This document shows positions 27,876 through 32,428 of a DNA stretch of 34,159 bases, one piece after another. Under the pieces are notes generated by a model. That model was given only the letters and a program-made list of their open reading frames with translations. It was not told where the DNA came from and made no database searches. A program made the position numbers and the translations under genes. The DNA lies in contig JAQZCZ010000012.1 of the NCBI GenBank assembly GCA_028751095.1, positions 1 to 34,159 on the forward strand, written 5' to 3'. Source of the stretch: Euryarchaeota archaeon Ods01 (GTDB taxonomy: Archaea > Halobacteriota > Halobacteria > Halobacteriales > Halorutilaceae). Numbering within the stretch: the first letter of the stretch is position 1; the number at the start of each line of letters is the position of its first letter.

Positions 27876-28537
27876 ACCTCGGCTGGCTTGCTCTCGAAGT
27901 CAAGTACCTCGGACGCGCCCGCGAGTTCTACGTCGACCGTCTAGGTCTCGATGTCGTACGTGAGTCCGAGACCGACTGCGTCGTAGAGGCTGGCGACACC
28001 GAACTCGTTCTCCGCGTCCCGAGCGACGTTCCCCGTGGAGGTACGCACGTCCATTACGCATTCACGACGCCGCGAGACGAGTATCCGCGTTGGAAGGAGG
28101 AGTTCGAAGCCGTCGAGGAGCGCGACTTCGGGGCATACTCGTCGCTCTACTTCTATGACCCCGACGGTCACTGCGTCGAGATAGGCGAGTCGGACGCCTC
28201 GGGAGATGGCATCGCCGGCGTCTTCGAGGTCGTCTTTGAGGTAGAGGACCTTGAACGCGCAACCGGTTTCTACACCTCGCTCGGCGCTTCGGTCACCGAC
28301 CGAGGCGACGACCGACGACGCGTCCGTCTCGACGCGGGCGGCTTCGATATCGAACTCTGGGAGCCGCAGTTAGGAATCGCTGACGGACAGGGCGGCGTGC
28401 ATATGGACGTAGGATTCGAGGTCGACGACGTGGCTGAGACGGTGGACGCCGTAGAGGAAGACGCTCTAGCCTCCGAGACGACGCGCCACGGCGTCCGTCT
28501 GCGCGACCCCGACGGTCATTACGTAACCGTCTACTGA
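27872..28537 (+). CDS. Tandem VOC (glyoxalase/dioxygenase-type) domain protein
   Basis: 221-aa protein with two vicinal-oxygen-chelate modules. The first (about 1-108) runs from ALEVKYLGRAREFYVDRLGLDVV to YFYDPDGHCVEIGE; the second (about 115-221) from VFEVEDLERATGFYTSLGASV to LRDPDGHYVTVY. The usual first metal-ligand histidine near each N-terminus is not obvious, so metal binding and enzyme class are open. It overlaps the phosphoesterase stop by 4 bp and converges with ribE by 7 bp. Related proteins include glyoxalases, extradiol dioxygenases and resistance proteins; none can be chosen here. Confidence 0.82.
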   Translation: MNLGWLALEVKYLGRAREFYVDRLGLDVVRESETDCVVEAGDTELVLRVPSDVPRGGTHVHYAFTTPRDEYPRWKEEFEAVEERDFGAYSSLYFYDPDGHCVEIGESDASGDGIAGVFEVVFEVEDLERATGFYTSLGASVTDRGDDRRRVRLDAGGFDIELWEPQLGIADGQGGVHMDVGFEVDDVAETVDAVEEDALASETTRHGVRLRDPDGHYVTVY

Positions 28538-29139
28538 CCGCCGAAGCCGTCGAGCGCGCCGCCCACGGTGCTTTCGACGTACTTCGCGACGATGTCCGCC
28601 TCAAAGTTGACGGGGTCACCCGCCTCCTTGTCGGAGAAGTTGGTGACACGGCGCGTCTCAGGGATGACCGCGACGGTGAACTCGCCCGTATCCTTGTCGA
28701 GTTCGGCGACGGTTAGCGAGACGCCGTCGAGCGTCACCGAACCCTTCTCGACGACGTAACGCGCATATCCGTCGGGAACTTCAAAGACGTACTCCCAGTC
28801 ATCGCCAATCTGGCGAATCTCCGCCACCCGTGTCGTCGTGTCGACGTGTCCTTGTACGATATGCCCGTCGAACCTCCCGTCGGCGGGCATGGCGCGTTCG
28901 AGGTTTACGGCGTCACCCTCGGCGAGTCCACCGAGCCAGGTCTTGCGTAAAGTCTCCTTGGCGACGAAGACCTCAAAGCCGTCCTCGTCGGCTTCCTCAG
29001 CCGTCAGGCACGCCCCGTTGACCGCGACCGACGCGCCGCGTTCAGGAGCGAACGAAGCGCCTATACGTAGACGCGTTCCGCCGTCACCTCTCTCAACCCC
29101 CTCAATATGCCCCGTCTCTTCCACGATACCGGTGAACAT
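28531..29139 (-). CDS. ribE: Riboflavin synthase alpha chain
   Basis: 202-aa enzyme dismutating two 6,7-dimethyl-8-ribityllumazines into riboflavin. The canonical N-terminus MFTGIVEETG sets the start at 29139. Two lumazine-binding barrels are visible: GASVAVNGACLTAEEADEDGFEVFVAKETLRKT in the first and VEKGSVTLDGVSLTVAELDKDTGEFTVAVIPETRR in the second, each split over about 35 residues; NxxCLT and DGxSLT are hallmark motifs. Many archaea use an unrelated riboflavin synthase; haloarchaea have this bacterial type. An ATG at 29190 would add 17 residues; notably the first GTAATTAC box of the hairpin array is centred 27-28 nt from 29190, so transcription may start near there, leaving a ~50-nt leader to 29139 or the longer protein. 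Confidence 0.9.
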   Translation of the reverse strand: MFTGIVEETGHIEGVERGDGGTRLRIGASFAPERGASVAVNGACLTAEEADEDGFEVFVAKETLRKTWLGGLAEGDAVNLERAMPADGRFDGHIVQGHVDTTTRVAEIRQIGDDWEYVFEVPDGYARYVVEKGSVTLDGVSLTVAELDKDTGEFTVAVIPETRRVTNFSDKEAGDPVNFEADIVAKYVESTVGGALDGFGGQ

Positions 29140-29213
29140 ACCTGCGGTATGCCGTCCGTCACCGAAAGGGGTTCGGTTCCGCGCCGGCATCGGGTGTACA
29201 GCCGACGCTTTTC

Positions 29214-29393
29214 GTAATTACGGGGACTCGGGGAGTCCCCGGATGAGGAAAGACGGCTTGGCGTCTTTCCGTAATTACGAGGGGTCTTGACCCTCTCTCA
29301 TTAGAAAAGGTCCCTCGCGGCACCTTTCCGTAATTACGAGAAGTCGCAGACTTCTCTAATTAGGAAAACGCCAACAGGCGTTTTCCGTAATTG
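29214..29393. repeat. Array of three ~58-bp double-hairpin units
   Basis: Three tandem units start at GTAATTAC boxes (29214, 29271, 29330), with a partial fourth box (GTAATTG, 29387). Each unit has two hairpins: 29222-29240 (8-bp stem) and 29247-29270 (9 bp); 29279-29297 (3+5 bp with one bulge) and 29304-29329 (6+2 bp with mismatches); 29338-29356 (8 bp) and 29363-29386 (10 bp). The second hairpin has GGAAA...TTTCC feet in units 1 and 3, imperfectly in unit 2. Stem sequences differ between units but stay complementary. The array is upstream of the EF-1alpha TATA box, so it is not part of that mRNA. Confidence 0.9.
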
Positions 29394-29440
29394 TTAATAA
29401 GCGTTCGTCCCGAACATCAGTCACTCAGGAGAAAGAGGTG
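29394..29440 (+). promoter_or_regulatory. EF-1alpha promoter and Shine-Dalgarno sequence
   Basis: TTAATAA (29394-29400) is a TATA-like box predicting a start of transcription near 29423. The short leader then carries GGAG and GAGGTG (29428-29440) ending 5 nt before the ATG at 29446, a good Shine-Dalgarno. This contrasts with the leaderless geometry of most genes here and suits a highly translated gene. Confidence 0.65.
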
Positions 29441-29445
29441 TAAAA

Positions 29446-30711
29446 ATGGCTGACAAACCCCACATGAACTTGGCTGTAATAGGCCACGTAGACCACGGAA
29501 AGAGCACGCTCGTAGGACGCCTTCTGTTCGAGACGGAGAACGTCCCCGAGCACGTGATTGAACAGTACCGCGAAGAAGCAGAGGAGAAGGGCAAGAGCGG
29601 ATTCGAGTTTGCGTACGTGATGGACTCGCTCGACGAGGAGCGTGAACGCGGCGTTACCATCGATATCGCTCATCAGGAGTTCGACACCGACGAGTACTAC
29701 TTCACCATCATCGACGCGCCCGGGCACCGCGACTTCGTCAAGAATATGATTACCGGAGCGTCGCAGGCTGACAACGCCGTTCTCGTCGTCGACGTTGGCG
29801 ACGGCGTTCAGCCACAGACGAAGGAACACGTCTTCCTCGCCAAGACGCTCGGTATCGACGAACTCATCATCGCGGTCAACAAGATGGACACCGTCGACTA
29901 CGACGAGACGGACTACAAGCAGACTATCGAGGAGGTCAAGGAACTCCTCAAGCAGGTCCAGTTCAACACCGACGACACGACCTTCATCCCCGTCTCTGCG
30001 TTCGAGGGCGACAACGTCGCAGAGGAGAGCGACAACACGCCTTGGTACGACGGACCCACGCTTCTCACGGCGCTGAACAACCTCGCGGAGCCGTCGGAGC
30101 CGACCGACCTCCCGCTCCGTCTTCCGATTCAGGACGTTTACTCTATCTCGGGTATCGGTACTGTCCCTGTCGGACGTATCGAGACGGGCGAAATGGAGCC
30201 AGGCGACAACGTGAGCTTCCAGCCAAGCGACGTAGGCGGGGAGTGTAAGACCATCGAGATGCACCACGAGGAAGTCGACTACGCCGGTCCTGGTGACAAC
30301 GTCGGATTCAACGTCCGTGGAGTCGGACAGGACGATATCCGCCGTGGCGATGTCTGCGGACCTGCCGAGGACCCGCCCACTGTCGCCGAGACGTTCAAGG
30401 CGCAGATAGTCGTGATGCAGCACCCGAGCGTTATCACCGCTGGATACACGCCCGTCTTCCACGCCCACACGGCGCAGGTCGCATGTACCATCGAGTCCAT
30501 CGACCAGAAGCTCGACCCGTCGAGCGGAGACGTTGAGGAGGAGAACCCCGACTACATACAGGCGGGTGACGCGGCTATTGTGTCCGTCCGTCCGCAGAAG
30601 CCCCTCTCCATCGAACCCGCGAACGAGATTCCGCAACTCGGCTCGTTCGCCATCCGCGACATGGGTCAGACCGTCGCGGCGGGTAAGGTCCTCGAAGTCG
30701 AAGAGCGATAA
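29446..30711 (+). CDS. tef1a: Translation elongation factor EF-1alpha
   Basis: 421-aa GTPase that delivers aminoacyl-tRNA to the ribosome. G-motifs are all visible: GHVDHGKST (13-21), the switch-I region [27 protein letters not shown] and NKMD, with the effector region intact. Domains 2 and 3 follow ([41 protein letters not shown]). Length is normal for archaea. The stop codon overlaps the rpsJ start (TAATG), so the two are co-transcribed and coupled, the conserved archaeal arrangement. It is preceded by the hairpin array and a Shine-Dalgarno leader. Confidence 0.98.
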
Positions 30712-32066: not shown

Positions 32067-32428
32067 ATGGTGCGAGAGACGGAGGTGGACGAAGAACCCG
32101 ACTACCGCATCAACCTACCGTCGGGAAAAGTCGTTGACGTAACCGTCAACAAGGTCGAACCGTGGGAGAAGTTCCCGTCAGGCTGGCACTACAGCCTGCA
32201 TTACGGAACACGGGACGGAGAAACGATACTCCGTTATCTCGAAAATCGAAGATTTTCGACGACTCGTTGAAACGGCGGACGCCGTTTCGAGATGACAACG
32301 GACATACCGACGACGAACACCACCGTCACGAAGGAGACGAACGAGAGAACATAGAGTTCGAGGGGATGGAAGAGCTATACGAACGGTTCCTCGAAGAGGT
32401 GAAACAACATGAACGAGAAAGAAACTGA
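32067..32428 (+). pseudogene. TumE-like toxin gene interrupted by a 53-bp double hairpin
   Basis: The first part reads VRETEVDEEPDYRINLPSG through GWHYSLHYGTRDGETILRY and then runs into non-family residues and a TGA at 32268-32270. The family C-terminus continues in another frame from 32291: DDNGHTDDEHHRHEGDER, NIEFEGMEELYERFLEEV and a stop at 32428. Removing exactly 32238-32290 (53 bp) joins the two into one open frame that keeps the expected GETILRYDxxHxxxxxHxGD-xxIEFxG pattern of TumE-type toxins. An ATG at 32040 is an alternative start; 32067 fits the TATA-like box. The 3' end overlaps the antitoxin start by 20 bp. Probably inactive unless the insert is bypassed or the truncated form works. 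Confidence 0.75.
32238..32290. mobile_element. Miniature double-hairpin insertion
   Basis: Hairpin A (32239-32259) is TCGAAAATC-GAA-GATTTTCGA, a 9-bp stem with 3-nt loop. Hairpin B (32269-32288) is GAAACGGCG-GA-CGCCGTTTC, a 9-bp stem with 2-nt loop. A 9-nt spacer separates them. The insert carries the premature stop and shifts frame by two. No clear target duplication is visible. Architecture resembles the units at 29214-29393. Confidence 0.7.

Follow-up and report, generated by a model that had tools for sequence, protein, structure and literature searches.

A tandem array of double hairpins next to tef1a

The window analysed here is a 34,159-nt stretch of the genome of a haloarchaeon from the same genus as Halorutilus salinus. 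Within it, tef1a, the gene for EF-1alpha, and a ribE-like gene are divergently oriented, and the intergenic region between them holds an array of hairpins at positions 29214-29386 (Table 1). The array consists of three tandem units of 57, 59 and 57 bp, matching the three units of about 58 bp, with start-to-start distances of 57 and 59 bp, recognised in the original prediction; the terminal box follows 57 bp after the start of unit 3. In 5' to 3' order, a unit comprises the box GTAATTAC, a 19-nt first hairpin with an 8-bp stem and a 3-nt loop, a 6-nt spacer of the TNATTA type and a second hairpin of the form GGAAA...TTTCC, starting with GAAAA in unit 2. As had also been described, the four stems of units 1 and 3 pair perfectly with their own partners and unit 2 is imperfect: in its first hairpin two pairs beside the loop are broken and another is G-T, and its second hairpin has one A-C mismatch. 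The box is present three times in the whole window, every time within the array, against an expectation of 0.16. A solitary 3' half of a second-type hairpin precedes unit 1, as if left over from an earlier unit. Tandem Repeats Finder did not call the array, and Rfam gave no match at E <= 5 across 28900-29700.

Table 1. Positions of the features discussed in the text, numbered from the first base of the window.
Feature	Position	Strand	Details
ribE-like gene, divergent neighbour	28531-29139	-	likely true start MFTGIVEE at 29139
Orphan 3' half of second-type hairpin	29204-29213	+	GACGCTTTTC; from sequence
Unit 1	29214-29270	+	box GTAATTAC 29214-29221
Unit 1 first hairpin	29222-29240	+	GGGGACTC(GGG)GAGTCCCC
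Unit 1 spacer	29241-29246	+	GGATGA
Unit 1 second hairpin	29247-29270	+	GGAAAGACG(GCTTGG)CGTCTTTCC
Unit 2, imperfect	29271-29329	+	box 29271-29278, first hairpin 29279-29297
Unit 2 spacer	29298-29303	+	TCATTA
Unit 2 second hairpin	29304-29329	+	
Unit 3	29330-29386	+	box 29330-29337
Unit 3 first hairpin	29338-29356	+	GAGAAGTC(GCA)GACTTCTC
Unit 3 spacer	29357-29362	+	TAATTA
Unit 3 second hairpin	29363-29386	+	GGAAAACGCC(AACA)GGCGTTTTCC
Terminal box	29387-29392	+	GTAATT; from sequence and alignment of four relatives
TATA-like element, presumed tef1a promoter	29394-29400	+	TTAATAA; from alignment of four family members
tef1a (EF-1alpha)	29446-30711	+	92-96% identity in family members; matches in 59/59 genomes searched
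Degenerate double hairpin	32239-32288		R2 17.7 bits, - strand; hairpins 32239-32259 (CGAAAATC GAA GATTTTCG) and 32269-32288 (GAAACGGC / GCCGTTTC)

The TATA-like TTAATAA, located 46-52 bases 5' of the tef1a start codon and identical in all four aligned family members, is presumably the tef1a promoter, and the terminal box GTAATT, which occupies the position expected for an archaeal BRE, may be that element. With TTAATAA read as the promoter, the array, which abuts it, would lie upstream of the tef1a transcript and hence not form an mRNA leader, in agreement with its earlier placement outside the leader. We note, from the window (29393-29407) and L005, L006 and L007, that the promoter block GTTAATAAGCGTTCG recurs exactly or nearly in a region of another genus, there located between acyl-CoA dehydrogenase-like and short-chain dehydrogenase-like frames.

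At the same site, H. salinus carries two 60-bp units with stems that differ from those of the window, all perfectly paired, and an analogous orphan half-hairpin (GCGCGTTTCC) 5' of its first box. In a third congener, the contig starts within the last unit, the second hairpin of which is identical to that of the window. In a member of another genus of the family, the promoter block is present and the array absent. A different gene, also divergent, adjoins the array in H. salinus, with ribE further off; thus, the array travels with tef1a.

In an alternative reading, GTAATTAC and the TNATTA-type boxes would bind a dimeric regulator of tef1a, with the hairpins acting as spacers. Conserved boxes beside variable stems, a 19-nt first hairpin and a 6-nt spacer that are exact in all five units, retention at the promoter despite a different neighbouring gene, and a box palindrome that occurs nowhere else in the window are all compatible with such an operator. 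It leaves unexplained, however, why the spacers should be palindromes with changes on both sides, its regulator is only hypothetical, and no similar array was found elsewhere in the window genome or in H. salinus. We consider an operator array the main rival to the interpretation presented below, albeit an unlikely one.

Folding and pairing of the array

Perfect hairpins (stem of at least 8 bp, loop of 3-7 nt) number 13 in the window, four of them within 180 bp at the array, a cluster that is not reproduced in 30 dinucleotide shuffles of the window (at most two per 180-bp stretch). The folding z-scores of the array are -6.9 and -9.3 for RNA of the two strands and -8.5 for DNA, and no shuffle equalled it. 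The original prediction had named two outcomes that would speak against it, no such array in relatives and as many stems in shuffled sequence; H. salinus has an array, and shuffling does not recreate it. Across the five units (three from the window and two from H. salinus), 95.3% of the pair cells are standard as compared to 78.4% after shuffling. Changes on both sides are seen for 8 of 17 pairs. These numbers derive from few and related units and from a consensus structure drawn from the same units. Pairing is accordingly conserved despite sequence change, as originally proposed.

Strong RNA folding and two-sided changes are also what a structured RNA would display, i.e. a 5' leader, small RNA or terminator with stems under selection for RNA folding, and hairpins precede 503 termination sites in Haloferax volcanii (PMC7237163). 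Nevertheless, the array is situated between divergent genes and upstream of the presumed promoter, and the Rfam match that such an RNA might have is absent. Together with the stem and loop properties of the dispersed element described below, this makes a functional RNA improbable.

A dispersed double-hairpin element in haloarchaea

A covariance model built from the array was run against haloarchaeal genomes, as the original prediction had suggested. No second array emerged, models and patterns recovering the array type at tef1a only, in the window genome and H. salinus, but the search led to a dispersed double-hairpin element: the model gave weak matches in many Halobacteria, and most of those inspected have the form GTCGTT-hairpin-TGATGA-hairpin-AACCAC. 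A pattern of the boxes only (GTCGTT...TGATGA...AACCAC) is present in 71 of 118 genomes, with no match for the reversed control. A covariance model of the dispersed element, R2, has matches in 30 of the 40 relatives searched, H. salinus among them; there, two copies carrying the expected boxes, both of which are part of the model, reach 57.5 and 60.8 bits, and a third reaches 51.9. Across 148 genomes of the phylum, searched with strict filters, R2 matches were confined to the window's own order. The dispersed element is apparently widespread in haloarchaea and yet undescribed, and no published description of it or of the array was found in the open-licence literature. The earlier claim that no haloarchaeal element like the array had been described has to be qualified, as an element of the same architecture, itself apparently undescribed, is widespread, with copies in H. 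salinus.

One genome (G012) contains 66 model matches, many with equal scores and probably representing about half as many places, as most elements are matched on both strands; these copies are possibly a recent burst. Identical or near-identical copies (L222-L235) are embedded in longer repeats that differ by lineage, and consequently the ends of the element are not those of the repeated unit. The window itself holds a second, degenerate double hairpin, and the stretch 32204-32288 around it has stems common in the dispersed element and, by eye, overlaps two consecutive frames, the first of them small, at the end of the one and the beginning of the other. A terminator role of the dispersed copies was considered and dropped, the contexts assigned by a rough ORF caller following no clear rule (22 convergent, 29 tandem, 12 divergent, 16 overlapping and 12 unknown).

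Double hairpins between constant outer boxes resemble BIMEs, and palindromic elements termed PATEs are known from Haloquadratum (PMC3119063), raising the question of a mobile origin, with the array as a remnant of IS200/IS605-type ends, a PATE or a REP/BIME moved by a Y1 (RAYT-like) transposase. Some dispersed copies are indeed part of larger repeats that occur in identical copies, and H. salinus has four Y1 (PF01797) matches. On the other hand, the window genome, which is 88.7% complete, has no Y1 match, and none was found in the element-rich genomes G008, G034, G035 and G044, on which ground RAYT mobilisation of the dispersed element was rejected. REPs, which fall into GTAG and CGTC super-families with the tag next to the hairpin, share with the elements described here that they are short extragenic hairpins, often in head-to-head pairs, with families differing in their stems (PMC3733652). 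In contrast, the array hairpins have no GTAG or CGTC tag beside them, a fixed 6-nt spacer joins the two hairpins between constant boxes, and the array type is not dispersed but restricted to tef1a in the window genome and H. salinus, while the stems of the dispersed element are interchangeable within one family that is abundant in genomes without a Y1 match. Similarly, PATEs are haloarchaeal, transposase-free and palindromic, but they are IS605-related with near-terminal palindromes (PMC3119063), and no transposon core is seen in the array. We therefore judge a mobile-element remnant to be rather improbable.

Stems, loops and inversions of the dispersed element

Stems were surveyed in 132 box matches among those listed, with pairing not required and most exact duplicates dropped. 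In this set, perfect pairing is found in 212 of 264 hairpin slots, and at least 46 distinct stems occur. The 122 listed elements with at least one perfect hairpin comprise 1985 Watson-Crick pairs, 16 G-T, 16 A-C and 22 others; wobble is thus not preferred, G-T being no commoner than A-C, which speaks against a structured RNA. Among the matches listed, a C-G pair closes 203 of 204 perfect triloop hairpins, and the triloop is GNA or TNC in 162 of the 204 (79%, with about 12% expected), in equal measure on both strands (82 GNA and 80 TNC). Such DNA-type loops, found equally in both orientations, again argue against an RNA. Haloarchaeal loci totalling 545 kb contain 29 triloop hairpins of at least 9 bp, of which 18 are of the C(GNA)G type or its complement, as compared to 0 of 4 in one shuffle; a small sample, 150 kb of E. 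coli, likewise gave 0 of 4 for stems of at least 8 bp. C(GNA)G is a very stable DNA mini-hairpin motif (PMC4686876), and in the promoter hairpins of bacteriophage N4 the C-G closing pair and the G and A of the loop are needed for supercoil-driven extrusion (PMC4496689).

Dispersed copies with flanks at least 70% similar were compared in pairs, which overlap and are not independent. In these comparisons 50 hairpins are identical, 25 differ by exact inversion of the loop and 7 by other loop changes, so that 25 of 32 loop-only differences are exact inversions; in a further 12 both arms have changed and still pair perfectly, and 28 have a one-sided change. In L269 and L279, whose flanks are conserved, the first stem and loop have been swapped in a matched fashion with the second hairpin unchanged. 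Both inverted loops and multiple compensatory changes have been listed as patterns of template switching (PMC8794818). The alignment A3 was drawn from copies preselected for at least 85% pairing, and its pair counts are hence not independent evidence.

Relation between the array and the dispersed element

Two hairpins, a 6-nt spacer and outer boxes are common to the array (five of five units) and the dispersed element, whereas the boxes differ, with GTAATTAC and TNATTA-type spacers in the former and GTCGTT, TGATGA and AACCAC in the latter. The dispersed-element box pattern has no match in the window genome, and the array spacers closest to TGATGA are GGATGA of unit 1 and TGATTA of one H. salinus unit. 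R2 scores 21.5 bits (E 0.0013) and 13.8 on the H. salinus units and 11.6 on part of one window unit. The first hairpins of the array have GNA loops in three of five units and most second hairpins loops of at least 4 nt; the loop bias and inversions reported above were measured on dispersed elements, not on the array. Taken together, kinship is no more than suggestive: given the different boxes and the weak R2 scores, we refrain from assigning the array to the dispersed family, and the weakness of these scores means that the likeness may be convergence.

Two candidate links between the types were dropped. A class with the boxes GTGAAT-ACTTCA-GTGAAT appeared as an intermediate, and C11:185876 of H. 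salinus resembled a link to the array. However, the four exact matches of the class have near-identical flanks, the one examined, in L314, is contained in a TnpB-like reading frame of 442 aa, and the C11 copy is, by eye, a related remnant. The best weak match outside the genus (in G050) for the covariance model R1 is this very segment. The double hairpin near position 1500 of L314-L317, common to four genomes with near-identical flanks, has fixed stems, whereas its loops interchange between TTC, GAA, TGC and GGA.

Discussion

Based on these analyses, we propose, with moderate confidence, that the array consists of tandem double-hairpin units that act as DNA and whose palindromes both arise and are maintained by templated copying. 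The arms would fold as single-stranded DNA or as extruded cruciforms, allowing template switching in which one arm is rewritten using the other as template. Both sides of a stem would then change together because one arm is copied from the other, and the loop would often be inverted in the process, as in the related-looking dispersed elements. The C(GNA)G triloops of such haloarchaeal hairpins would favour formation of the DNA hairpins. One-sided changes, found among near-identical dispersed copies, are expected under template copying, as a mutation would first affect a single arm before being either copied to the other or reverted. The original prediction had offered structure selection and palindrome copying side by side; the lack of wobble preference and the loop inversions of the dispersed element favour copying, and selection for an RNA structure becomes the less likely option. 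Matched arms would, however, also be expected under selection for a DNA structure.

Two known systems invite comparison. Hairpins maintained by template switching (PMC8794818) likewise combine inverted loops with changes on both sides of the stem, but those were described for RNA genes, whereas here the hairpins are mostly extragenic DNA with DNA-type triloops. The early promoter hairpins of phage N4 are similarly small and C-G closed, with a triloop that has G first and A last; they are recognised by the phage virion RNA polymerase (PMC4496689), whereas no such polymerase is implied for the array, only part of whose hairpins follow the loop rule.

The promoter-adjacent position and the retention with tef1a in Halorutilus suggest a possible regulatory role, the most plausible being that of a putative supercoil-sensitive upstream element or insulator at tef1a, with hairpin extrusion in response to supercoiling as the most specific candidate mechanism. 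More tentatively, and in our view doubtful, the array may be the tandem version of a class-wide haloarchaeal family of double hairpins, characterised by constant boxes, exchanged stems, a DNA-hairpin loop code and rewriting by template switching, that would have been recruited as a supercoil-responsive promoter element.

In conclusion, the large natural set of copies analysed here suggests that two-sided stem changes, usually taken as evidence for functional RNA, can also originate in DNA itself, loop inversions being the tell-tale of such an origin. With its hundreds of copies, the dispersed family lends itself to tests of archaeal template switching, and the array, retained next to the promoter of a housekeeping gene, offers a direct test of whether extruded DNA hairpins play a part in transcription.
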